Assembly: GCF_003344625.1 (NCBI RefSeq)
Contig: NZ_QPKJ02000003.1
Span: 310,001 to 374,000, forward strand
Direction: 5' to 3'
Length of the DNA: 64,000 nt
Origin: Solirubrobacter deserti
GTDB lineage: Bacteria; Actinomycetota; Thermoleophilia; Solirubrobacterales; Solirubrobacteraceae
The number at the start of each line of letters is the position of its first letter. Positions within the stretch are counted from its first letter, which is position 1. The notes under the pieces are model-generated. The model worked only from the letters and a program-made list of their open reading frames with translations, had not been told where the DNA came from and searched no databases. This document shows positions 4,064 through 14,799 of the stretch, in pieces. The position numbers were made by a program, and so were the translations under genes.

Positions 4064-5461
4064 ATGACCGTCCTCCGCGCCGCCCTCGCCTCCGTCCTTC
4101 TGCTGTTGTTGCCGGCCTCGGCGATGGCCGGAGGGGTTCGCGTCGACGCGAACGGCGTGATCGTCGTCACCGGCGACGTCAGCGGCGAGAGCATCGTGGT
4201 CGGCTGGGACGGCGAGGACCACTACGTGGAGTCCGATCGCGGCCTCACGGTCGGTGGTGGCGACTGCACGCCCGACGGGTCGAACCACGTCGACTGCACG
4301 GGCACGGCGTTCAACGTGTCGTTCATCGGCGCCGGCAGCTTCTTGGACGCCTCGCAGGTGAGCTCGTCCGCGCGGCTCACCGCGACCGGCAGCCCGGGCG
4401 CGGACGAGCTCGTCGGCACGCCCAACGACGACACCATCAGCGGCATCGAGGGCGACGACTCACTCTGGGGCGGTGGCGGCAACGATGCGCTCAACGGCGG
4501 AGCGGGAGCCAACACGTTCAACGACGGTGACGGCACCGACGTGTCGGCCGGTGGTCCGCACAACGACACCTTCAACGTCGGCCAAGGCCGGGACACCCTG
4601 CAGCCGGGCGACGGCTACGACGTCATCAGCTACTCCACCCGCCTCGTCGGTGTGACGATCACGCTCAGCGGCGGGGCCGACGACGGCGAGCCGGGGGAGG
4701 GCGACGACGTGGGCGCCGTCGCCGAGCAGGCCGACGGCGGCAGCGGCAACGACGTGCTCGCCGCCAACAACCTCGGCAACACGCTCAACGGCGGCGCCGG
4801 CAACGACGCGCTGATCGGCGGCACGGCGGAGGACCGGCTGGTCGGCAATGAGGGGGACGACTCGATCGACGCGCGCGACGGCCGCTTCGACTCGGTCGAC
4901 TGCGGGCCGGGCAACGACGTCGTGTTCGCCGACCCCGCGGACCTGACCCAGAACTGCGAGGTCGCGCCTGACGCGGACGGCGACGGCTACCTCGCCAACG
5001 TCGACTGCGCGCCGACCGACCCGGCGATCCACCCCGGCGCCGGCGAGGTCATCGGCAACCCAGTGGACGAGGACTGCAAGGACGGCCCGCTCTACGCGCG
5101 CGTCGTCTCACCCGTCGGCTACAGCATCAAGCGCGAGGGCAGCCGCAACCGGATGCGGTTCACGAAGCTCACCGTCGGCGAGATCAAGCCCGGCGACACG
5201 ATCGAGATCCGCTGCTCGACCAAGGCGCGCGGGTGCCCGTTCACGCGCAAGACGGTCACCGGCAAGAGCAAGCGCACCGTGAGCGTGCTCACGCACTTCA
5301 AGAAGCGCTACCTGCGCCGCGGCGCGGTGGTCGAGATCCGGACGCTGCGGCCGAACGAGATCGGGTCGGTGCGGCGGCTCACGGTCGGCCGGCGCGGCGC
5401 GGTCAAGTCCGAGACGCTGTGCCTGAACGTGGGCGCCAGCGCACCGACCCGCTGCGCCTAG
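4064..5461 (+). CDS. Secreted RTX-type calcium-binding repeat protein
   Basis: 465 residues with a signal peptide (MTVLRAALASVLLLLLPASAMA). A lead domain is followed by hemolysin-type nonapeptide repeats (GDDSLWGGGGNDALNGGAG, near 140, and GGSGNDVLAANNLGNTLNGGAGNDALIGG, near 230, written here only as landmarks in shorter form: GGxGNDxLxGG). Around residue 300 comes DADGDGYLANVDCAPTDPAI, a MopE-like motif, ending VDEDC. The last 110 residues form a basic Ser/Thr/Arg-rich module with four cysteines. RTX repeats fold on Ca2+ binding, so this is probably an extracellular or cell-wall protein. No type I exporter lies beside it. It ends convergently with the SDR gene (3-bp overlap). Confidence 0.82.
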   Translation: MTVLRAALASVLLLLLPASAMAGGVRVDANGVIVVTGDVSGESIVVGWDGEDHYVESDRGLTVGGGDCTPDGSNHVDCTGTAFNVSFIGAGSFLDASQVSSSARLTATGSPGADELVGTPNDDTISGIEGDDSLWGGGGNDALNGGAGANTFNDGDGTDVSAGGPHNDTFNVGQGRDTLQPGDGYDVISYSTRLVGVTITLSGGADDGEPGEGDDVGAVAEQADGGSGNDVLAANNLGNTLNGGAGNDALIGGTAEDRLVGNEGDDSIDARDGRFDSVDCGPGNDVVFADPADLTQNCEVAPDADGDGYLANVDCAPTDPAIHPGAGEVIGNPVDEDCKDGPLYARVVSPVGYSIKREGSRNRMRFTKLTVGEIKPGDTIEIRCSTKARGCPFTRKTVTGKSKRTVSVLTHFKKRYLRRGAVVEIRTLRPNEIGSVRRLTVGRRGAVKSETLCLNVGASAPTRCA

Positions 5462-6141
5462 GCCTCCTGCGCCGTCGGGCGCACGAGGATCTCGTTGACA
5501 TCGACGCGGGCGGGCTGTGAGACGGCGTACAGCACGGCCCGCGCGATGTCGTCGGCCTCGAGCCGGCCCTCGGACGGGTTGTCGAAGAACGGGGTCTCGG
5601 TGCCGCCGGGCGAGATCAGCGTCGTGCGGATGCCGGTGCCGTTGAGGTCGATGCGCACGGCCTCGGCCATCGCCGTCACCGCCCACTTGGTCGCGGAGTA
5701 CAGGCTGCCCGGCATCACGCGCCGCCCGGCGACCGAGCCCGTCAGCAGCACGTGCCCGCGCGACTCCTTCAGCGCCGGGATCGCGGCCCGGACGGTGTAG
5801 GCGGCGCCAAGGACGTTCGTCAGCACCATCGCGCGCCAGTGCTCGGGCGTCTCGTTGAGCCACCCGCGCGCGGCGCCGAAGCCGGCGTTCGCGAACACGA
5901 CGTCCACCTGTCCGAACGCGTCCAGCGCCGTCGCGATCAGCGCCTCGTTGGCGTCCCACTCGGTGACGTCGGTCTCGACGGCCAGCGCGCCGTCCCCGAG
6001 GTCGGACACGAGCGCGTCGAGCTTGTCCTTCGAGCGCGCGGCCAGCACGACGCGGTAGCCGGCCTCGACGGCGCGGCAAGCGGTGGCGGCGCCGATGCCG
6101 GAGCTGGCGCCGGTGATGACGAAGACGGGGGAGTCGGCCAT
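5458..6141 (-). CDS. Short-chain dehydrogenase/reductase
   Basis: Classical NAD(P)-dependent SDR, 227 residues from the ATG at 6141. A GTG six codons upstream is an alternative, but MADSPVFVITGASSGIG matches the usual family start. Cofactor motif TGASSGIG, NAG motif (FANAGFG), catalytic Ser (LLTGSVAG) and YxxxK (YSATKWA) are all intact. Arg residues following the first strand (LAARSKDK) suggest NADPH preference. The substrate cannot be read from the sequence. It is followed 42 bp upstream on the same strand by an aldehyde dehydrogenase gene, so the two may be co-transcribed. Confidence 0.85.
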   Translation of the reverse strand: MADSPVFVITGASSGIGAATACRAVEAGYRVVLAARSKDKLDALVSDLGDGALAVETDVTEWDANEALIATALDAFGQVDVVFANAGFGAARGWLNETPEHWRAMVLTNVLGAAYTVRAAIPALKESRGHVLLTGSVAGRRVMPGSLYSATKWAVTAMAEAVRIDLNGTGIRTTLISPGGTETPFFDNPSEGRLEADDIARAVLYAVSQPARVDVNEILVRPTAQEA

Positions 6142-6183
6142 GGCCGGGACGCTACCCACGCGTCCCGGCCAGGCGCACCGGGA

Positions 6184-7569
6184 TCAGACGCCGGCGACCT
6201 TGAACGTGCGGATGTTGGTGAACTCGTGCATCCCGACGCTGGCGAGCTCGCGGCCGTAGCCCGAGCGCTTGATGCCGCCGAACGGCAGCCGCGGGTCAGA
6301 CGCGACGAGCGCGTTGACCGACACCAGGCCGGACTCGATCCGCCGCGCGACCGTTTCCGCGCGCTCGGTGTCGGTGCTCCAGACCGTGGCGCCGAGCCCG
6401 TAGCGGGTGTCGTTGGCCAGCTCGACCGCCTCGTCCTCAGTTTCGAACGGCGTGATCGCGACCACCGGGCCGAACGTCTCCTCGGTGAAGGCGGTCATGC
6501 CGGGCTTGACGCCGGCGAGCACGGTCGGGGCGAAGAAGAAGCCCGGGCGATCCAGTCGCTGCCCGCCCGTCTTGAGCTCGGCGCCCTCGGCGACGGTCGC
6601 CTCCACCTGGCGCTCCAGGTTCTCGAGGATGTCGAGCCGGGCGAGCGGGCCGAGCTGCGTGCCGTCCTCGGTCGGGTCGCCGATCTTGACCGCCTCCAGC
6701 GCCGCGACGAGCTTGGTCTGGAACGTGTCGACGACGGACGCGTCGACCAGGAAGCGCTTCGGCGCGATGCACGTCTGGCCCGCCGTCATCAGCCGCCCGG
6801 TGACGGCGTGCTGGACGGCGAGGTCGAGGTCGGCGTCGGCGAGCACGACGAACGGGTCCGAGCCGCCCAGCTCGAGGACGCTCTTCTTGAGCGCCTTGCC
6901 GGCCTCCGCGGCCACGAACGCGCCGGCGCGCTCGGAGCCCGTCAGGGTCACGGCGGCGACGCGCGGGTCGGCGATCAGCTGCGCCGACACCTCCGGCACG
7001 CGCTCCGACCCGACGATCAGGCTCGTGAACAGGCCCGCGGGCGCGCCGGCCGCCGTGAACGCGTCCTCGAGGGCGAGCGCCGTACCCGAGACGTTCGGGG
7101 CGTGCTTGAGCAGCGCCGCGTTGCCCGCCAGCAGTGCCGGGCCGGCGAAGCGGATGACCTGCCAGAACGGGAAGTTCCACGGCATCACCGCGAAGATCAC
7201 GCCGATCGGCTCGTAGGTGACGACGTGGCGACCGGCCCCGGCGTCCACCTCGGTGTCGGCCAGCATCGCGGGGCCGGCCTCCGCGAAGTACTCCAGCGCC
7301 GACGCGCTCTTCTCGATCTCGAAGCGGGCCTCGGCGAGCGGCTTGCCCATCTCGGAGACGACGAGCCGCGCCAGTTCCTCGGCGCGCTCGCGCAGGACCG
7401 CGGCTACGGCCACCAGCAACTCGGCGCGCTCGGCGACGGGCCGGCGCCGCCAGTCGCGATACGCCGCATCGGCGGCGGTCAGCGCGGCCTCGATCTGCTC
7501 CGGCCCGTGCTCCGGATAGGTCGCGACTTCCTGCTCGGTCGTGGGATCGACGACAGTGACAGCGGACAT
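6184..7569 (-). CDS. NAD(P)-dependent aldehyde dehydrogenase, succinate-semialdehyde dehydrogenase-like
   Basis: 461 residues from the ATG at 7569, which starts MSAVTVVDPTTEQEV. An ATG 12 bases upstream is also possible. The ALDH fold is complete: MPWNFPFWQ, the catalytic Glu in LELGGSDPF near residue 227, the catalytic Cys in TAGQTCIAPKR near residue 260, and the late EETFGPVVAI and PFGGIKRSGYGRE motifs. The overall pattern resembles succinate-semialdehyde dehydrogenases of the GabD/YneI group, but the substrate is inferred. The gene diverges from the peptide-exporter operon. Confidence 0.85.
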   Translation of the reverse strand: MSAVTVVDPTTEQEVATYPEHGPEQIEAALTAADAAYRDWRRRPVAERAELLVAVAAVLRERAEELARLVVSEMGKPLAEARFEIEKSASALEYFAEAGPAMLADTEVDAGAGRHVVTYEPIGVIFAVMPWNFPFWQVIRFAGPALLAGNAALLKHAPNVSGTALALEDAFTAAGAPAGLFTSLIVGSERVPEVSAQLIADPRVAAVTLTGSERAGAFVAAEAGKALKKSVLELGGSDPFVVLADADLDLAVQHAVTGRLMTAGQTCIAPKRFLVDASVVDTFQTKLVAALEAVKIGDPTEDGTQLGPLARLDILENLERQVEATVAEGAELKTGGQRLDRPGFFFAPTVLAGVKPGMTAFTEETFGPVVAITPFETEDEAVELANDTRYGLGATVWSTDTERAETVARRIESGLVSVNALVASDPRLPFGGIKRSGYGRELASVGMHEFTNIRTFKVAGV

Positions 7570-7619
7570 TTGGCTCCTCACCTGCGCGGCAAACGATTAC
7601 CGCCAAGGCTATCGCGCCG

Positions 7620-7648
7620 CGTGAGAAGTCTCTCATGGCCTCCTCACG
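7620..7648. promoter_or_regulatory. Inverted repeat in divergent promoter gap
   Basis: CGTGAGAAG (7620-7628) and CTCCTCACG (7640-7648) are inverted copies with one mismatch, separated by 11 bases that themselves contain GTCTCTCATG. The spacing of about two helical turns between half-site centres suits a dimeric repressor. It lies between the aldehyde dehydrogenase and the peptide/exporter operon and could act on either. No matching regulator is evident. Confidence 0.35.
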
Positions 7649-7710
7649 GTCGGCTTACGGCCCGCGGGGATTCTCCTTCCCACACCGCAAACGACCCAAG
7701 GGAGAACCCC

Positions 7711-7854
7711 ATGGCTCACCGGTCCTTCAAGGCCATCACCGCCGCGTCGCGCATCACCGCCAGCGCCGCGTCGAACTCCAACGACAGCAACTCCGGGCGT
7801 CGCCGCCGTCGCCGTCGGCGTCGCCGCCGCGCCCGCAACCGCTCCAACACCTAG
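7711..7854 (+). CDS. 47-residue peptide with polyarginine tail
   Basis: Short reading frame with an excellent ribosome site (AAGGGAG at 7698-7704, 6 bases before ATG). The N-terminal half is MAHRSFKAITAASRITASAA; then comes an Asn/Ser/Asp stretch, a run of 11 consecutive Arg, and ARNRSNT. The Arg run uses mixed codons (cgt, cgc, cgg), so it is not a simple triplet slip. There is no classical signal peptide. It ends 10 bp before the ABC exporter start and appears to be the first gene of a five-gene operon. The layout (small peptide, exporter, modifying enzyme) resembles exported peptide systems, but the family is unknown to me. A DNA-binding or RNA-binding role for the basic tail is the main alternative. 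Confidence 0.6.
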   Translation: MAHRSFKAITAASRITASAASNSNDSNSGRRRRRRRRRRRARNRSNT

Positions 7855-7864
7855 CCGGAGCGGC

Positions 7865-9586
7865 ATGGGCCTGCTCGACCGCCTCAGCGCCGCGCTCGCG
7901 CCGGCCGCGGACGACGACCAACTGGTCGCCGCCGCGCCGGCGCAGCGGGTGCGCACGATCCTCCGCCGCTTCTGGCCGTTCGCTCGCCCCTTCCGCAGGC
8001 GTTGGCTGCTGGGGCTGCTGCTGGCCGCTGCGTTGCCGGCGGTCGAGGCGGTCGAGATCTGGCTGTTCAAGTCGGTCGTGGACGACGTGCTCGTTCCCGC
8101 CGACCTCGCCGCGCTGTGGCCGCTGGCCGCCGCGATGGCGTCGCTCGCGCTGGCCGGCGCGCTGCTCTCCTTCGGTGACGAGTACATCGCCACGTGGGTC
8201 GGGGAGCGGTTCACCGTCGCGGTCCGGGCCGCGGTCTTCGACCACCTGCAGCGGCTCGAGCCCGACGCGCTCGACCGCCGCCGTCACGGAGACGTCCTCT
8301 CCCGGCTCTCCGGCGACCTGCACGCCATAGAGACCCTGCTGCTGTCCGCGCTGGCCGAGGCCGTCCAGGCCGCCGCGCGGCTGCTGTTCTTCGTCGCCGC
8401 GTTGTTCGTGCTCTCGTGGAAGCTCGCGCTCGTCTCGCTGATCGTCGTCCCACCGCTGTGGTTCGCGGCACGCCACTTCGGGCGCCTGGCGCGCCGTGCC
8501 GCGCGCGAGCGCCGCCGTCGCAGCGGCACGGTCAACACCGTGCTCGAGGAGGCGCTGGCCAACAGCGCGCTGGTGCAGGCCGCCAACGCGCAGGCCCACG
8601 AGCAGGCGCGCCTGCGCCGGGAGGCCGAGGGCGCGTCCGAGGCCGAGCTCGCCGGCACACGCATCGCGGGCCTGTTCGCGCCCGTCATCAACCTGATCGA
8701 GCTGCTCGGCGCGATCGTCATCATCGCGCTCGGCACGTGGGCGCTCAGCTCGGGCGACCTCACGCTCGGCGGGCTGCTCGCGTTCCTCGCCTACCTGTCC
8801 CAGTTGTACCGGCCGCTGCGGGACCTCACGCGCCTGTACACGAGCGTGTTCGAGGCCACGGCCGGCGCCGAGCGTGTGATGGAGCTGCTGGACACGCAGC
8901 CGCGCGTGGTCGAGCGCCCCGGTGCCCACGACCTCGTTCGCGCCGCCGGTCGGCTGGAGCTGCGCGGCGTGCACTTCGCCTACGACCGTCTGGCGCTCGC
9001 GGACGCTTCACTGGTCGTCCCGCCGGGCCGGTTCGTCGCGCTCACGGGCGCGAGCGGCGCGGGGAAGTCGACCGTGGCCAAGCTCGCCGTGCGCTTCCTG
9101 GACCCCGATGCGGGCACGGTCCACCTCGACGGCCACGACGTGCGCGACCTCACGCTGCAGTCGCTGCGCCGCAACGTCGCGCTCCTGCTGCAGGACGCGC
9201 CGCTGCTCGACGGCACGATCGCCGACAACGTCGCCTACGGCCATTCGGACGCCACCGACGCCGACGTCCGCCGGGCGCTGGCGGTCACGGGCCTCGACCT
9301 CGATCCCGCCACGCCCGTCGGCCAGAAGGGCCGCGCGCTCTCCGGCGGCCAGCGCCGGCGCGTCGCGATGGCGCGCGCGCTGCTGCAGGACGCGCCCGTG
9401 CTGATCCTCGACGAGCCCACCGCCGGGCTCGACCCCGACGCGGCGCGCGAGTTGATCGCCCCCCTGCGGGCCATCGCGCGCGACCGCGCGACGCTCCTGA
9501 TCACCCACGACCCCGTCCTGGCCGAAGCGGCCGACGAGGTCATCGTCCTCGACGGAGGCCGCGTGCAGTGCATGGCTACGCGATGA
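7865..9586 (+). CDS. ABC exporter, fused permease and ATPase
   Basis: 573 residues: an N-terminal membrane domain with six predicted helices (about residues 45-320) fused to one nucleotide-binding domain. Walker A is TGASGAGKSTV (near 392), signature LSGGQRRR (near 495), Walker B VLILDEPTAGLD (near 516), and the His switch is in LITHDP. This is the ABCB half-transporter architecture, working as a dimer to export lipids, drugs or peptides. There is no C39 peptidase domain. It starts 10 bp after the Arg-rich peptide and ends in an ATGA overlap with the kinase gene. The peptide is a possible cargo by position only. Confidence 0.88.
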   Translation: MGLLDRLSAALAPAADDDQLVAAAPAQRVRTILRRFWPFARPFRRRWLLGLLLAAALPAVEAVEIWLFKSVVDDVLVPADLAALWPLAAAMASLALAGALLSFGDEYIATWVGERFTVAVRAAVFDHLQRLEPDALDRRRHGDVLSRLSGDLHAIETLLLSALAEAVQAAARLLFFVAALFVLSWKLALVSLIVVPPLWFAARHFGRLARRAARERRRRSGTVNTVLEEALANSALVQAANAQAHEQARLRREAEGASEAELAGTRIAGLFAPVINLIELLGAIVIIALGTWALSSGDLTLGGLLAFLAYLSQLYRPLRDLTRLYTSVFEATAGAERVMELLDTQPRVVERPGAHDLVRAAGRLELRGVHFAYDRLALADASLVVPPGRFVALTGASGAGKSTVAKLAVRFLDPDAGTVHLDGHDVRDLTLQSLRRNVALLLQDAPLLDGTIADNVAYGHSDATDADVRRALAVTGLDLDPATPVGQKGRALSGGQRRRVAMARALLQDAPVLILDEPTAGLDPDAARELIAPLRAIARDRATLLITHDPVLAEAADEVIVLDGGRVQCMATR

Positions 9587-10344
9587 TCGCCCACCTCAAC
9601 CGCTCCAACCGGTACGACACGTACGAGGTCTGGAGCGAGGAGCGGCTGTGCTCGTGCGTGGCCAAGCGGCCGCGGCCCGACGCCCCGCGCAAGACGGCGG
9701 CCGACCTGCGGCTGGAGGGCGAGCGCCTGATCGCGCTCGCCCACCCGCACATCGTCCGCGGCTACGAGCTGCTCGAGACCGACGACGGCCCGACGCTGAT
9801 CATGGAGACGCTCGACGGCGAGACCGTCGCGCACCTGCTCGCGGGCAGGCGGCTGGACACCGACGAGGTCGCGTGGCTGGGCCTGCAGGTCGCCAGCGCG
9901 CTGCGATACCTGCACGGCCGCGGGCTCCTGCACGTCGACGTCAAGCCGGGGAACCTGATCGCGACCGGCGGCCGCGCCGTGCTGATCGACCTCTCGATGG
10001 CCCGCCCGCCCGGGCGCTATCGGCGTGGGCTCGGCACCTGGTGCAACCTCTCGCCCGAGCAGGCCCGCGGCGACGAGCTCACCGCCGCGGCCGACGTCTG
10101 GGGCCTCGGCACCGTCCTGCTCGAAGCCGCACACGGCGCGCCCGCGTTCCCGCAGCAGGAGCCGGAGTTCCCGCAGCTCGTCTTCCCGCCGCCGCTTGTG
10201 GACGGCCCGCTCGGCGACGTCATCGCCGCGTGCCTGGCCTTTGACCCCTTCGACCGCCCGACCCTGCCCGAACTCGCCGCCGCGCTGCTCCCCCACGCGC
10301 CCGGCGCCCGACCCTGGAGTGACCCGTGCGCCGCTACATCCTGA
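9583..10344 (+). CDS. Serine/threonine protein kinase (short, soluble)
   Basis: 253 residues from the ATG overlapping the exporter stop. Hanks-type kinase signs: invariant Lys in CVAKRP (residue about 24), catalytic loop HVDVKPGNL (HRD-type with V for R), the metal-binding Asp in IDLSMARPPG (DLS instead of DFG), an activation segment with GTWCNLSPEQA, and ADVWGLGTVL. Glycine-rich loop features are weak and there is no transmembrane or PASTA region, so it is a compact cytoplasmic kinase, probably active. Its operon place between an exporter and surface-type proteins suggests it acts on operon products; this is inference. Confidence 0.82.
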   Translation: MIAHLNRSNRYDTYEVWSEERLCSCVAKRPRPDAPRKTAADLRLEGERLIALAHPHIVRGYELLETDDGPTLIMETLDGETVAHLLAGRRLDTDEVAWLGLQVASALRYLHGRGLLHVDVKPGNLIATGGRAVLIDLSMARPPGRYRRGLGTWCNLSPEQARGDELTAAADVWGLGTVLLEAAHGAPAFPQQEPEFPQLVFPPPLVDGPLGDVIAACLAFDPFDRPTLPELAAALLPHAPGARPWSDPCAATS

Positions 10345-10856
10345 CGATCGCCGGCTGTCTGATCGTGCTCGGAGGCGTCTGGGCCCTGATCGACCGCGCG
10401 AGCGGCTCCAGCACACCCGCGCCGATCCAGCTCAACGTCGCCGACGAGACCGTCACCGCGACGCCGACGCCGACCCCCACGGTCACACGGACCCCGACGC
10501 CCACGCCGCGCGGCGAGCGCCGCGCGAGCCGGGACCGCGACCGTGAGCGTCCGCGCCGCACCCCGACCCCCGCGGCGACCCGGTCCGCGCCCAGCCGCGC
10601 GGCGACCGCTCCGACGGCCGAGCCCCGTCCCCAGCGCACGGCCACGCCGCGCCCGCGCCCGCAGCGCACCGCTCCCCCGCGCCCGCGGCCCCGCCGCACC
10701 GCCACGCCGGCGCCCACCCAGGCCGCTCCGCCGCCGCCCGCACCGACCGCCGCTCCCCCGGCGCCGACCGGCGACGACGATGACGACGATGACGACGACG
10801 GCGGCGCACCCGAGGTGGACGACGACGCCGGCGAGGGTGACGACGATGATGACTAG
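10326..10856 (+). CDS. Membrane-anchored Pro/Thr/Arg-rich protein with polyaspartate tail
   Basis: 176 residues from a GTG start overlapping the kinase end by 19 bp. Residues 5-23 form a single membrane helix. The next 120 residues are low-complexity: TPTPTP blocks, then Arg/Pro-rich segments. The last 30 residues are acidic, with a run of nine Asp and further DDD/DDDDD blocks. No folded domain is visible. The shape (anchor, extended stalk, acidic tip) fits a cell-surface protein. The polyacidic tail is charge-complementary to the polyarginine peptide at the head of the operon. Confidence 0.65.
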   Translation: MRRYILTIAGCLIVLGGVWALIDRASGSSTPAPIQLNVADETVTATPTPTPTVTRTPTPTPRGERRASRDRDRERPRRTPTPAATRSAPSRAATAPTAEPRPQRTATPRPRPQRTAPPRPRPRRTATPAPTQAAPPPPAPTAAPPAPTGDDDDDDDDDGGAPEVDDDAGEGDDDDD

Positions 10857-11130
10857 GCACGCGCTGATGGCGCTGCTGGCCGCGGCGCTACTGATCGCGA
10901 TCTTCGCGCTCTTGCGCACGGACGACGACGTCGCGGTGGACCGCTCGGAGCCCGCCGCGGCCGCCGCGATCGAGGCGGCGCGCGCCGTCGTCCCCGGCGA
11001 GCTCGTCGACGTGAGTCGCGACACCGACAGCCAGGACAAGTGGGAGGTCACGCTGCGCGCGCACGGCCAGGAGTACGAGGTCGAGCTGCTGCCCGACACG
11101 CTCGCCCTCCTGCGCATCGACTACGACTGA
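10846..11130 (+). CDS. PepSY-like membrane-anchored protein
   Basis: 94 residues; ATG at 10846 (or the adjacent ATG at 10849) overlaps the preceding stop. A membrane helix (HALMALLAAALLIAIFALL) is followed by a segment resembling a PepSY domain: EAARAVVPGELVDVSRD, then KWEVTLRAHGQEYEVELLPDT and IDYD. PepSY proteins often regulate extracytoplasmic proteases or sit beside two-component systems. Here a histidine kinase/response regulator pair converges on it. The family assignment is by pattern only. Confidence 0.6.
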   Translation: MMTRHALMALLAAALLIAIFALLRTDDDVAVDRSEPAAAAAIEAARAVVPGELVDVSRDTDSQDKWEVTLRAHGQEYEVELLPDTLALLRIDYD

Positions 11131-11160
11131 ACCTAAAGAGGGACTGTCCCTCTTTAAGTT
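11130..11160. terminator. Bidirectional terminator between peptide operon and response regulator
   Basis: TAAAGAGGGA (11134-11143) and TCCCTCTTTA (11147-11156) form a perfect 10-bp stem with loop CTG; flanking AAC/GTT adds outer pairs with one mismatch. A-rich and T-rich arms allow termination in both directions. The TAA stop of the minus-strand regulator (11154-11156) lies inside the stem. Confidence 0.75.
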
Positions 11161-11822
11161 CGCAGGCGGTAGCCCATCCCGCGCACGGTCTCGAAGCGCT
11201 CGGAGCCGAGCTTGCGGCGCAGGTAGCCGACGTAGACGTCGACGACGTTGGAGCCCGGGTCGAAGTCGTAGCCCCACACGTGGGAGAGCAGCTGCTCGCG
11301 GCTGAGCACCTGCCCGGGGTGGCGCAGGAACGTCTCCAGCAGCGAGAACTCCTTCGCCGTGAGCTCGGCCTCCTCCTCGTCGGCGGAGGCGCGGCGCGTG
11401 CGCACGTCGAGCGTGATCCCGCCGGCCGCCAAGACCATCGACGGCGAGCTCTCCCCGCCGCCCGCCTGGCGCAGCCGCGCCCGCACGCGGGCCAGCAGCT
11501 CGTCGAACACGAACGGCTTGGTGACGTAGTCGTCGGCGCCGAGGTCGAGGCCGGTGACCATGTCCTCGACCTCGTCGCGCGCCGTCAGCACGAGCACGGG
11601 CAGCCGCTCGCGGCGGGCCTGCAGCGCGCGCAGCACCGCGAATCCGTCCTGGCCGGGCAGGCCGATGTCCAGGATCAGGAGGTCGAAGTCGGACGCGCGG
11701 GCGAGGTCGGCGGCGCGCACGCCGTCCTCGCACACGGTGGTCGTGTACCCCGCGGCCTTCAGGCCCTTCACGAGGAACGACGACAGGCGCGGCTCGTCCT
11801 CGGCGATCAGGATGCGGCTCAA
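11154..11822 (-). CDS. OmpR/PhoB-family response regulator
   Basis: 222 residues starting MSRILIAEDEPRLSS from a TTG codon (11822-11820). The TTG overlaps the kinase stop as TTGA and is preceded by GGAGG at 11830-11834. Receiver domain: acidic pair EDE near residues 8-10, phospho-acceptor Asp in LLILDIGLPG, Thr in VLTARDE, and Lys in YVTKPF. The C-terminal winged helix (Trans_reg_C) runs from about residue 125, with SLLETFLRHPGQVLSREQLL and the late VDVYVGYLRRKLG. Longer in-frame versions exist upstream but would run through the kinase gene. The target genes are unknown. Confidence 0.9.
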   Translation of the reverse strand: MSRILIAEDEPRLSSFLVKGLKAAGYTTTVCEDGVRAADLARASDFDLLILDIGLPGQDGFAVLRALQARRERLPVLVLTARDEVEDMVTGLDLGADDYVTKPFVFDELLARVRARLRQAGGGESSPSMVLAAGGITLDVRTRRASADEEEAELTAKEFSLLETFLRHPGQVLSREQLLSHVWGYDFDPGSNVVDVYVGYLRRKLGSERFETVRGMGYRLRT

Positions 11823-13243
11823 CGGGAGACCTCCGGTCCAGAGAGGGGAACGACGACGGTGAAGGTCGAGCCGGCCCCGGGCTGGCTCGAGAGCGTGGCG
11901 CGCCCGCCGTGGGCGTCGGCGATCGCGCGGACGATCGCGAGCCCGAGCCCCGCGCCCTCGGAGCGACGGCGGCTGCCGGCGGCGCGCGCGAAGCGGTCGA
12001 AGATCCGGTCCTGATCCTCGCGCGCGACGCCCGGGCCGCTGTCGCGCACCCACAGCGACGCCTCCTCGCCGTCGACGCCCGTGCCGATCCAGATCGCGTC
12101 GCCGTCCTGGGTGTGCTGGACGGCGTTCTGCGCCAGGCCCATCACCGCCTGCGTGAGGCGCTGGCGGTCGGCGTGCAGGACGGCCTCGCCGCGCGCCTCG
12201 AGCGCCCAGCGGCGCTTGCCGAGCCCGGCGGCCTTGTCGAGCAGCTCGTCGGTGAGCGCGCCGAGCTCGACCTTGTCCACGCGCAGGAAGTCGCTGCGCT
12301 CGGCCTTGGCCAGCAGCAAGAGGTCGTCGACGAAGCGGCTCATGCGGTCCAGCTCGTCCGTCACCAGCGCGACCGTCTCGCGCCGCTCGTCGGGGTCATC
12401 GCCGAGCAGCTCGAGGTGGCCGCGGACGATCGTGATCGGGGTGCGCAGCTCGTGCGAGGCGTCGCTCACGAACGCGCGCTGGGAGGCGAACGCGCCCTCC
12501 AGCCGGTCGACCATCGCGTTGAACGTGCGCGAGAGCTCGGCGATCTCGTCCGAGCCGGAGACGGGGATGCGGCGTGTGAGGTCGGTCTCGGTGATCGAGC
12601 GCGCCGTGTCGTCGAGCGTGCGCAGCGGCGCCAGCAGCCGGCCCGCGACGACCCACGCGAGCGCGGACGCGATCAGCAGCACGGTGATCAGCACGAGCGT
12701 CGCGAGCTGGACGGCCTCCCACACGTCCTCGCGCTCGGCGCTCAGGGACGCCGCGACCACGAACACGCCGCGCGGGGTCGCGCCCGTGGCCTGGACGGGC
12801 ACGGCGAGGTAGCGGATGGTCTCCGTCGGCGTCTCGACCTCACCGCTCTCGGGGCGGCGCAGCTGGGCCCAGCGCTCGGCCTCGCCCCCCAGCGTGAGCT
12901 TGCCGCCGCCCACGCTGGAGCGCTCGTCGTAGTAGCGCCCCTCGTAGAACATCACGATCGTCTCGCCCGGCCCCGGGACGTTGCGCTGCTTGAACAGGTC
13001 GAAGATCGCCCGCAGGTTCGCGCCGAACGGGTCGCCCGTCTCTGGGTTCACGCCCGAGGCCAGCGACCGGAACTCCTCCACCTCCTGCTGCAGCGCCGCG
13101 TCCAGGCGGTCGTCGGAGCGCACGACCAGCACCTCGTAGATCGCGACCACCGACACGACGGTCGAGAAGGACATCAGGACGACGAACGCGGCGAGGATGC
13201 GCGTACGGGCACCGCCGAAGATGCGTCGCCGAAGTGCCGTCAA
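11819..13243 (-). CDS. Sensor histidine kinase with HAMP domain
   Basis: 474 residues from a TTG start. A membrane helix at about 15-38, an extracytoplasmic sensor region of about 130 residues, a second helix at about 173-198 and a HAMP linker come first. HisKA carries the phospho-acceptor His in SDASHELRTPITI, and HATPase_c carries GLAQNAVQHT (N box), DSGPGV (G1) and GAGLGLAIV (G2). It is transcribed ahead of its regulator, the reverse of the more common regulator-first order. The sensor domain has no family I recognise. It may read the state of the adjacent exporter/PepSY operon. Confidence 0.88.
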   Translation of the reverse strand: MTALRRRIFGGARTRILAAFVVLMSFSTVVSVVAIYEVLVVRSDDRLDAALQQEVEEFRSLASGVNPETGDPFGANLRAIFDLFKQRNVPGPGETIVMFYEGRYYDERSSVGGGKLTLGGEAERWAQLRRPESGEVETPTETIRYLAVPVQATGATPRGVFVVAASLSAEREDVWEAVQLATLVLITVLLIASALAWVVAGRLLAPLRTLDDTARSITETDLTRRIPVSGSDEIAELSRTFNAMVDRLEGAFASQRAFVSDASHELRTPITIVRGHLELLGDDPDERRETVALVTDELDRMSRFVDDLLLLAKAERSDFLRVDKVELGALTDELLDKAAGLGKRRWALEARGEAVLHADRQRLTQAVMGLAQNAVQHTQDGDAIWIGTGVDGEEASLWVRDSGPGVAREDQDRIFDRFARAAGSRRRSEGAGLGLAIVRAIADAHGGRATLSSQPGAGSTFTVVVPLSGPEVSR

Positions 13244-13285
13244 GGGCAGGAACGCTACGGCGCACGGCTAAGGAAGCTCTTACTC

Positions 13286-14284
13286 GTGCGCGCGTACCCA
13301 CGGATCCGCTTCATGGGCTCCAAGTACCGGCTGGCGCCGCGCCTGGCCGAGCTGTTCGCGACGCTTCCGCCCGGTGCGGCGATCGACGCCTTCAGCGGCA
13401 GTGGCGTGGTCGCGTACACGCTGAAGGCCGGCGGGCGCGAGGTGCTGGCCAACGACCACCTCACGTTCACCTCCACGCTGGCCGAGGCGCTGGTGGCCAA
13501 CGAGGGCGAGCGGCTCAGCGCCGAGGACGTCGAGCGGATCTGTTCCCCGAGCCGGGACGGGCGGGACTTCATCGCGCGCACGTTCGACGGGCTGTACTTC
13601 CCGCGCGAGGATCACGCGTTCCTGGACGCCGCCTGGTCGCACGTGGACGAGCTGGACGGGGCCAAGCGGGCGCTGGCGCTCAGCGCGCTCTGCCTCGCCG
13701 CCGCCCAGAAGCAGCCGCGCGGCGTGTTCACCGTCACCACCCCGCGCTACGACGACGGCCGCCGCCAGCTGCGGATGAGCCTCGAGCAGCTGTTCCGCGA
13801 GGCGGTGGCGCGCTGCAACGCCGCGGTGATCCCGGGCGCGGCGCGCGCCCGCTGCGGCGACGTCTTCGATCTGGACGAGCCGGCCGCGATCGCCTACCTG
13901 GACCCGCCCTACGCGCCGCCCCGCGACGACACGTGCTACGTCAAGCGCTACCACTTCCTCGAAGGGCTGGCCACGTACTGGCGCGGCCAGGAGATCATGT
14001 GGGAGACCCGCACGCGCAAGCTGGTCAAGCGGCCCACGCCGTTCGGGTCCAAGCGCACGGCGCCGCTCGCGCTCGACCGCCTGTTCGACCACTTCCGCTC
14101 GGCGGAGTCGCTCGTCGTCTCCTACGGCTCCAACGCCGCGCTGCCCGCCGACGAGCTCGAGGCGCTGCTGCGCCGCCACCGCCGGACCGTGACCCGCCAC
14201 GAGATCGCGCACCGGTACGCGTTCGGGACGCACCGGACCGCGGAGCGACGCGTGGCCACCGAGTACGTCTTCGTCGGCCGGTAA
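13286..14284 (+). CDS. D12-class DNA adenine N6-methyltransferase (Dam-like), orphan
   Basis: 332 residues from GTG at 13286 (an ATG at 13313 is the alternative; AAGGAA at 13270 favours the longer form). Family marks: FMGSKYRLAP near the start, SAM-binding DAFSGSGVVAYTLKAGG near residue 38, and catalytic YLDPPYAPP near residue 203, all intact. Motif order is that of alpha-class N6-adenine enzymes such as Dam and M.DpnII. No restriction endonuclease lies next to it, so it appears solitary. The GATC specificity of relatives cannot be assumed. Confidence 0.85.
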   Translation: MRAYPRIRFMGSKYRLAPRLAELFATLPPGAAIDAFSGSGVVAYTLKAGGREVLANDHLTFTSTLAEALVANEGERLSAEDVERICSPSRDGRDFIARTFDGLYFPREDHAFLDAAWSHVDELDGAKRALALSALCLAAAQKQPRGVFTVTTPRYDDGRRQLRMSLEQLFREAVARCNAAVIPGAARARCGDVFDLDEPAAIAYLDPPYAPPRDDTCYVKRYHFLEGLATYWRGQEIMWETRTRKLVKRPTPFGSKRTAPLALDRLFDHFRSAESLVVSYGSNAALPADELEALLRRHRRTVTRHEIAHRYAFGTHRTAERRVATEYVFVGR

Positions 14285-14307
14285 GCCTGCGGGGTAGACT
14301 CAGCCGA

Positions 14308-14799
14308 GTGCAGGAGATGGTGATCTACGGCGTGAGCTTCGACATGGTCGGCAAGCAGCCGATCGTGCTCCTGAAAGCCGTCGACACGAATAAGTTCCTC
14401 CCGATCTGGATCGGACATCCGGAGGCGGCGGCGATTCTGATGAAGCTGCAGGGGGCGTCGACGCCGCGGCCGATGACGCACGACCTGTTGTTCGACATGC
14501 TCGGCGAGCTCGAGGTCGCGTGCACGCGCGTCTCGGTCACCGAACTGCGTGAGAACACCTTCTACGCGTCGATCACCTTGTCAGTGAACGGACGCGAGGT
14601 CGAGATCGACTCCCGGCCCAGCGACGCGCTGGCCCTCGCCGTCCGCTCCGGCGCCCCGATCTTCGCGGCCGAGGACGTGATCGCGGAGTCCGCGATCGAG
14701 TTCGAGCACGAGGTCGAGGACACCGAAGAGGTCGTCGACAAGTTCAAGGAGTTCCTGGACCGCGTGACGCCCGAGGACTTCGCGGGCGGCGACACCTAG
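14308..14799 (+). CDS. Bifunctional nuclease (BFN/DUF151) family protein
   Basis: 163 residues from GTG at 14308 (ATG at 14317 is an alternative). The DUF151 core is clear: GVSFDMVGKQPIVLLKAVD, LPIWIGHPEAAAI, PMTHDLLFDML, and SRPSDALALAVRSGAPIF. An acidic C-terminal tail follows. Plant relatives have DNase and RNase activity; bacterial members are conserved in actinobacteria and some are linked to UvrB/UvrC-like motifs. Here the protein is a single domain. It ends convergently with the secreted protein gene. Confidence 0.88.
   Translation: MQEMVIYGVSFDMVGKQPIVLLKAVDTNKFLPIWIGHPEAAAILMKLQGASTPRPMTHDLLFDMLGELEVACTRVSVTELRENTFYASITLSVNGREVEIDSRPSDALALAVRSGAPIFAAEDVIAESAIEFEHEVEDTEEVVDKFKEFLDRVTPEDFAGGDT

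Follow-up and report, generated by a model that had tools for sequence, protein, structure and literature searches.

A leader-bearing low-complexity peptide, its ABC exporter and a Ser/Thr kinase as a candidate peptide modification and export system from Solirubrobacter to Streptomyces

What would a bacterium do with a peptide of 47 residues, exactly 11 of them consecutive arginines, encoded at the head of an operon with a transporter and a protein kinase? The question is raised by a 64,000-nucleotide stretch of the Solirubrobacter deserti genome (contig NZ_QPKJ02000003.1, positions 310,001 to 374,000; here, the window), in which five same-strand genes form one overlapping run coding for the peptide, an ATP-binding cassette (ABC) exporter, a Ser/Thr kinase, a membrane-anchored protein with a polyaspartate tail (the poly-Asp anchor) and a PepSY-like protein (Table 1). 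Ten base pairs separate the peptide stop codon from the exporter start, exporter and kinase share 4 bp, the end of the kinase gene overlaps the GTG start of the anchor gene, and the end of the latter overlaps the PepSY-like gene; a response regulator and a histidine kinase on the minus strand converge on the operon. An initial annotation, made from the sequence of this stretch, had proposed an undescribed peptide, exporter and kinase system here, and the five-gene run, the polyarginine peptide and its strong ribosome-binding site are all as it described them. Comparison with relatives points to a family wider than it supposed, and the best explanation seems to be a leader-guided low-complexity peptide, phosphorylated by the kinase and exported by a dedicated ABC transporter, a reading to which we give a probability of roughly 0.6.

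The peptide open reading frame (ORF) appears to be a real gene, beyond chance, since synonymous changes dominate between two sister species (L065 and L066, with nine synonymous and two nonsynonymous changes over codons 1 to 39), the codons of the Arg run are mixed (CGC/CGT/CGG), and the ORF recurs before related exporters. This recurrence was evaluated in relatives of the exporter, collected by scanning an alignment of its membrane domain against GTDB species genomes, of which the best 80 of 119 were used. A strict peptide pattern, defined after the sequences had been seen, asked for an ORF of 30 to 125 codons behind a ribosome site, with FxxxxPA lying within residues 1 to 16, in the 700 bp before the membrane domain. 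It was found at 61 of the 80 exporter loci, against 6 of 2,484 other 700-bp segments taken from both strands of the same loci and 7 of 2,467 in a second control read identically to the target. The small ORF is thus conserved upstream of the exporter in relatives, as the initial annotation required for its proposal to stand. Of the other 19 loci, 15 have at the same place a low-complexity ORF without the exact leader, no acceptable peptide was seen upstream of the exporter in L096, L097 and L135, and the peptide of L110 has lost its start codon.

Across the family, a conserved N-terminus with the consensus M-x-x-F-S-x-L-x-P-A, which is the leader that the initial annotation had found lacking, is followed by a highly variable, charge-rich remainder. 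Three Solirubrobacter loci carry the variant FKAI[TS]AA, which misses the exact pattern. Polyarginine, initially taken as the defining feature, turns out to be a lineage-specific tail, found in Solirubrobacter and its kin, in Nocardioidaceae metagenome-assembled genomes (MAGs) and in a family that holds the Rubrobacteraceae MAG L106 (L204-L207 and L209-L212, assigned there through L213, which repeats the L106 contig); the poly-Arg peptide of L108 bears an acidic C-terminus of its own. Many Streptomyces tails are rich in His, Gly and Asp, others in Gly/Tyr or Trp-His-Lys. Cys is present in 10 of 62 listed pattern peptides and absent from the other 52; the window peptide has none either. In MAGs labelled Nitrospirae (L128:5731-5916 and L163:2612-2767), a Ser/Thr/Gly tail is accompanied by a C-terminal hydrophobic stretch containing Cys. 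Neither the window peptide nor the poly-Asp protein belongs to a family at curated cut-off in Pfam or NCBIfam, and those family peptides that were scanned against the same libraries gave no match. Used as a genome-search query, the poly-Arg peptide retrieved mostly low-complexity chance matches (three at E <1e-8, window included), a single peptide recovering few relatives because the sequence changes so fast outside the leader. The relatives named by a protein search are all called "hypothetical protein" where the source gives a name.

The window exporter matches Pfam ABC_membrane and ABC_tran, other matches being of the P-loop type only, and has no peptidase C39 domain by Pfam, in agreement with the ABCB-type exporter without peptidase initially described. 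It is identical over the query to the exporter of Solirubrobacter deserti CPCC 204708 (L085), its closest solved structures by sequence are P-glycoprotein/MsbA-type exporters, and NCBIfam and PADLOC gave general ABC similarity only. A match to a cyanophycin-associated ABC protein (310 bits, cut-off 880) was rejected as being of this general kind. At an E value up to 1e-70, this exporter or a second subfamily of it was found in 18 of 396 genomes sampled across the phylum and in 105 of 392 genomes of Streptomyces (the genus of L145). The second subfamily (L216-L218 and L289-L308, Streptomyces) is accompanied by Lys/Pro/Ala-rich peptides of the type MSFHKIAPVKK...KRRPV.HKG; in the 20 of its listed places that were examined, a slightly wider pattern retrieved the peptide at 15 loci and the kinase motif appeared at none. 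In L217, of this subfamily, peptides occur in tandem.

The 253-residue kinase matches Pkinase (3.3e-24), its nearest relative of solved structure by sequence is PknB (1.5e-17), and NCBIfam gave general kinase similarity only. An alignment of 29 kinases of the family shows no variation at the catalytic Lys, Glu, HxD, Lys, Asn and Asp, while the glycine loop (GxGxxG) is replaced by a motif resembling L-x-R-x-x-x-x-D-x-Y, so that the window kinase has, at the sequence level, the catalytic residues of an active Hanks-type Ser/Thr kinase. A kinase gene with HxDxKPxN lies downstream of the exporter in 59 of the 80 loci. In an order-level search of 61 genomes, own included, a close kinase adjoins the exporter at eight loci in seven other genomes, all eight with an Arg-rich small ORF and a ribosome-site-like stretch directly before the exporter; L072 carries two such peptides in tandem, and that of L071, identified by eye, consists of Arg-Thr-Gly repeats. 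Less similar kinases (L074, L075, L077-L084) had no family exporter in the stretches examined and were not counted, and those of L073 and L076 lie at contig ends, with no exporter seen. The kinase is broken in L105 and in L110, where the peptide is broken as well, and no close kinase was found elsewhere (E up to 1e-40) in the 12 genomes searched among the 16 kinase-less ones of the first set described below, both control genomes being positive. By comparison of loci, the partner that stays with the peptide family is the exporter, and peptide plus exporter is the core from which the kinase has repeatedly been lost, since kinase-less loci keep both without a close kinase elsewhere in the genomes searched.

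The composition of the peptide follows the presence of the kinase. The quantity compared was the number of Ser/Thr after residue 10 of the peptide, which in a first set of 66 kinase-bearing and 16 kinase-less peptides had a median of 6 with the kinase and 1 without (Mann-Whitney, 2.9e-8); at most one Ser/Thr was found in 0 of 66 kinase-bearing and 11 of 16 kinase-less peptides. The effect was unchanged by a cut at residue 8, 12 or 15, and on the exporter tree (78 rows) p was 1.2e-5, or 0.001 under Brownian motion. This set omits loci with a contig end or a broken or variant kinase (L101, L105, L128, L130, L131), those with no accepted peptide (L096, L097, L110, L135), three with no peptide found (L203, L214, L215) and L208 and L213, which are contigs of L102 and L106. 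Because the idea came from reading these very sequences, a second, new set was drawn from 40 of 43 close Streptomyces matches (the other three, L104, L142 and L145, belong to the first set); 15 were dropped as repeats, leaving 25 new ones, and L277 was left out as the same record as L110. Here, at most one Ser/Thr was found in 0 of 17 kinase-bearing and in all seven kinase-less peptides (Fisher, 2.9e-6), kinase absence at these seven loci being judged at the locus only. Nine of the 24 peptides fail the strict pattern (L.NL.PA and FS.L.P[FKT] variants) and were read from the listing.

With both sets combined in a tree-corrected regression (102 loci, 19 of them kinase-less), Ser/Thr is higher by 3.8 where the kinase is present (p=1.8e-8, lambda 0.79; under Brownian motion, p=6.6e-4). 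Over the same loci there was no change in leader Ser/Thr (residues 2-10, p=0.97), Arg+Lys (p=0.96) or peptide length (p=0.33), and the Asp+Glu fraction was higher where the kinase is missing (p=8e-4, Brownian 0.0075). Eight independent pairs on well-supported branches gave a mean of 5.7 as expected, 0 opposite and 2.3 undecided (sign test, median p 0.031). The tree regressions exclude L216-L218 and L158 (long branches), and at tandem-peptide loci (L094, L206, L210, L217) the peptide closer to the exporter was counted. The natural reading, which these data suggest, is that the kinase phosphorylates Ser/Thr of the tail and that acidic residues partly replace the phosphate where the kinase is gone, in support of the modification by the kinase that had been proposed at the outset. 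The leader is kept in 10 of 16 kinase-less and 61 of 66 kinase-bearing loci; since kinase-less loci mostly keep it, it is more probably the exporter that recognizes the leader.

Several points weigh against this reading. Besides the hypothesis having arisen from the first set, the choice among peptides lacking the exact leader was made by eye in both sets, and the first set alone gave no significant sign test on its 7 independent pairs (median p 0.125). When only its leader-bearing rows are kept, the effect is weaker (p=0.0026, Brownian 0.014), with at most one Ser/Thr in 5 of 10 kinase-less peptides, and kinase-less L093, L138, L142 and L151 retain 3 to 5 Ser/Thr. The rise in Asp was spotted after six residues had been tried, and Asp+Glu, when counted instead of taken as a fraction, does not reach significance in the first set (p=0.088). 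Four of the 80 exporter loci (L096, L097, L110, L135) have no accepted peptide.

Some of these loci would also fit a drift artefact, in which kinase and Ser/Thr would both be lost simply where a locus is decaying or changing fast, as the diverse tails of kinase-less loci, some of them leaderless (L106, L119, L129, L139, L158), and the double breakage in L110 might indicate. However, the exporter and peptide frames remain open, leader Ser/Thr, Arg+Lys and length stay constant while the Asp+Glu fraction goes up, and Ser/Thr are scarce as well in the second exporter subfamily, which lacks the kinase (no more than one in 12 of 15 peptides), so that we find drift hardly credible. The same covariation bears on whether the peptide is an intracellular, protamine-like nucleic-acid binder with unrelated neighbors, the kinase targeting the exporter or acting elsewhere, in line with the remaining doubt of the initial annotation. 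Poly-Arg chains do bind nucleic acids, and protein kinases often regulate transporters, but the peptide has a conserved leader, remains with the exporter after kinase loss and has Ser/Thr that follow the kinase, which makes this explanation very improbable.

If the peptide is phosphorylated and exported, to which of the known systems could it belong? SapB is made from the precursor RamS and has the exporter RamAB, and class III/IV lanthipeptides (LanKC/LanL; RamS-RamC-RamAB) resemble the system described here in their small leader precursor, a Ser/Thr kinase acting on the precursor, an ABC exporter and their occurrence in actinobacteria. The LanL kinase domain is among the NCBIfam library matches of the window kinase, and that of VenL (LanL) is described as phosphorylating its precursor (PMC2843593). 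In contrast, the present system has no phospho-Ser/Thr lyase, no cyclase and a peptide mostly without Cys. The window protein is a kinase of 253 residues only, scoring 56.1 bits against LanL (cut-off 650) and 23.5 against LanKC (cut-off 575), and its peptide, devoid of Cys, offers no Ser/Thr plus Cys core for lanthionine rings. With no lyase or cyclase, the product would retain its phosphate. Phosphorylated lasso peptides such as paeninodin likewise involve stand-alone kinases (PadeK/ThcoK), reported to phosphorylate one Ser of the precursor (PMC9266682). They differ in that here many Ser/Thr lie along the chain instead of one at the C-terminus and the kinase is of the Hanks type; no lasso B or C protein was found among eleven window genes scanned by Pfam (4064 to 14799, gene 5458-6159 excepted).

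CotG and CotB with CotH also combine Ser-rich surface proteins and a dedicated Ser/Thr kinase, in a module that is not known to have an ABC exporter and whose proteins are larger and spore specific. CotH is described as phosphorylating these Ser-rich repeat coat proteins of the Bacillus spore (PMC7821199), whereas the window kinase matches Pkinase and not CotH. The exporters of C39 bacteriocins, too, adjoin a leader peptide, but there is no peptidase domain here (TIGR01193, 176.5 bits against a cut-off of 523.85) and the window leader is not of the GG type. In protamines and SR proteins (SRPK), Ser phosphorylation sets the charge of an Arg-rich chain. These are eukaryotic and nuclear and have no exporter, and the likeness lies in the Arg-rich phospho-chain only, by description. 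As for anti-phage defence systems with kinase or ABC proteins, PADLOC gave only partial, general kinase/ATPase matches and none for the peptide, the anchor or the PepSY-like protein. In the broad sense of a ribosomally synthesized and post-translationally modified peptide (RiPP), the family has, by comparison, a conserved-leader precursor with a variable core beside a predicted modifying enzyme and exporter. A literature search, with preprints and most subscription journals outside its reach, found no paper describing this system, and on the grounds of sequence comparison it appears to be categorically new.

In the proposed mechanism, the operon would make, modify and export a small low-complexity peptide. 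The N-terminal leader would direct the peptide to the ABC exporter dedicated to it, the kinase would phosphorylate Ser/Thr after the leader and thus place negative charge on an Arg- or His-rich chain, and the exporter would then carry it through the membrane. An OmpR-type two-component system would turn the operon on in Solirubrobacter and its kin, where the poly-Asp membrane protein made with the poly-Arg peptide may retain it at the cell surface. A bolder and rather doubtful extension, offered tentatively, is that these sticky, low-complexity chains, positive or His-rich, form a new class at the bacterial surface. Negative charge written by the kinase onto Ser/Thr (which Asp partly replaces where the kinase is lost) would keep them soluble and harmless before export under the guidance of FSxLxPA, and outside they would assemble into a charge-balanced coat or condensate, docked on the poly-Asp anchor in poly-Arg lineages, as a bacterial counterpart of protamine, silaffin or CotG chemistry. 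The proposed system itself would mean a further class of exported peptides modified by a kinase, across Streptomyces, Rubrobacteraceae and the kin of Solirubrobacter, provide a ready test bed for writing charge onto a disordered peptide and exporting it in bacteria, and tie envelope-type regulators (OmpR type and extracytoplasmic function [ECF] sigma factors) to a possible surface product.

The composition of the Streptomyces tails raises the matter of metal handling instead, the peptide being an exported chelator, rich in His and Asp in that genus, with phosphates as extra ligands. In 43 of 82 peptides, His accounts for at least 15% of the tail, and ferric-reductase, FMN-binding and ApbE genes lie upstream at 16 to 22 of the 80 loci; set against this, good metal binding is not expected of poly-Arg and Lys/Pro/Ala tails, and the redox genes are not clustered at the remaining loci, so that we regard this function as quite unlikely. 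Taken singly, genes of the ferric-reductase-like, FMN-binding and ApbE types lie upstream at 22, 16 and 17 of 80 loci (e.g., L130:598-1950, L123:3964-4743 and L127:4742-5545, respectively).

How would the operon be regulated? We searched the 200 bases before the peptide for TGAGA-N4-TCTCA with at most one mismatch, and found this candidate operator before 11 of 16 peptides checked (the window, L065, L066, L068, L088, L089, L090, L092, L098, L102 and the Nocardioidaceae MAG L112), against 61 of 3,200 random 200-base stretches of the same loci, the nearest copy beginning 89 to 116 bases before the peptide start codon. With a longer operator pattern and up to 2 mismatches, the window genome has four matches (reversed control, one), of which the best, with 0 mismatches, is that of the peptide. 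The same kind of site precedes operons of anchor, histidine kinase and response regulator, including the peptide-less paralogues L180, L186, L187 and L188, as expected of self-regulation. Relatives of the histidine kinase (E up to 1e-60) occur in 8 of the 61 genomes, 7 of them also carrying the peptide module, which 8 genomes have in all (own included in both counts); in the eighth (L179), the response regulator and histidine kinase are at the same place and the whole block from peptide to PepSY-like gene is missing. Shared across these loci, the candidate operator is probably the site through which the OmpR-type response regulator controls the operon. To the points of doubt listed above must be added that no such site was found upstream of the L069, L071, L072 (two) and L091 peptides; in L072, an altered form could be discerned by eye.

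In Streptomyces, clustering placed an ECF sigma factor near the module at 40 of 80 loci and a zinc-finger anti-sigma factor at 45 of 80 (e.g., L133:8651-10055), in arrangements that vary and are codirectional downstream of the exporter in L093 and L142.

A few operator-like sites precede other genes. S. taibaiensis (the genome of L066/L087) has a VTC-domain gene, which we take to encode a polyphosphate polymerase and which runs into a CotH-like start below the Pfam cut-off (L200:2122-3024); it begins some 600 bases after a site with 2 mismatches and is a possible second output of the same regulator. Elsewhere in the window genome, a copy with one mismatch stands before a secreted repeat protein and an apparent cell-wall enzyme, presumably of the NlpC/P60 family (L195:1588-2842), and in L191 a site with zero mismatches has a downstream gene similar to that of L195.

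The last two genes of the run fared differently. At eight poly-Arg loci where the C-terminus was readable (the window, L183, L184, L088, L089, L072, L098 and L180), there is a protein, membrane-anchored or a lipoprotein, whose tail is long and acidic; of these loci, L183 and L184 are other contigs of the L065 and L066 genomes, matched by gene content, and L180 is another contig of the L092/L070 genome, where the anchor stands beside the histidine kinase and response regulator. In Solirubrobacter and its kin, the poly-Asp protein travels with the two-component cassette; no histidine kinase of this kind was found in the genome of L108. A poly-Asp scan of Streptomyces loci retrieved no such anchor, although the same scan missed L072 and L098, which were found by reading. 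The PepSY match of the small membrane protein is below the curated cut-off (21.5 against 24 bits). Both proteins were considered as core parts of the system and dropped, contrary to the place first given to the PepSY-like protein. The binding of the poly-Arg peptide by the poly-Asp anchor, suggested from the start, is a reasonable idea and may take place in poly-Arg lineages; it stands as a possibility only, as short-tailed relatives occur without any peptide. This last fact, a short acidic anchor without peptide in three paralogous cassettes (L186-L188), also counts among the points of doubt.

The anchor would have another role if the peptide were a secreted antimicrobial, that is, a bacteriocin-like cationic or His-rich peptide detoxified in the producer by the kinase, with the poly-Asp anchor as an immunity sponge. 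Poly-Arg and His-rich chains resemble membrane-active peptides, the tails are hypervariable, and the anchor is at or near eight poly-Arg loci. Nevertheless, many tails are near neutral, the scan of Streptomyces loci, not fully sensitive, found no such anchor, and the two-component and sigma-factor partners are equally compatible with envelope control; an antimicrobial role thus seems unlikely to us, and a phosphorylated, exported peptide with a putative envelope purpose is preferred.

Table 1. Features of the peptide operon and its flanks, in window coordinates
Feature	Position	Strand	Basis or detail
Candidate response-regulator operator	7622..7659	+	Palindrome TGAGA-N4-TCTCA (7622-7635), then two half-site-like repeats ~11 bp apart
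Peptide ribosome-binding site AAGGGAG	7698..7704	+	Read in sequence
47-residue peptide (ATG start): leader MAHRSFKAITAA, Ser/Asn/Thr segment, 11 Arg, tail ARNRSNT	7711..7854	+	ORF and family comparison
ABCB-type half-transporter exporter without peptidase domain	7865..9586	+	Pfam PF00664, PF00005
Compact Ser/Thr protein kinase, no GxGxxG loop	9583..10344	+	Pfam PF00069
Membrane-anchored protein, Pro/Thr-rich stalk, poly-Asp tail	10326..10856	+	Sequence and relatives
Small membrane protein, PepSY-like domain below Pfam cut-off	10846..11130	+	Pfam
OmpR-type response regulator, probable operon regulator; TTG start assumed	about 11154..11822	-	Pfam and operator data
Sensor histidine kinase	11819..13243	-	Pfam and relatives

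Upstream of the operon, the protein encoded at 4064-5461 has RTX calcium-binding repeats and a weak MopE-type metal-binding motif. On the other side, beside the histidine kinase (13280-14799), there is a gene for a D12-class adenine DNA methyltransferase followed by a bifunctional-nuclease-domain gene, and apparently the same methyltransferase adjoins the histidine kinase at the equal position in L179, L183 and L184.

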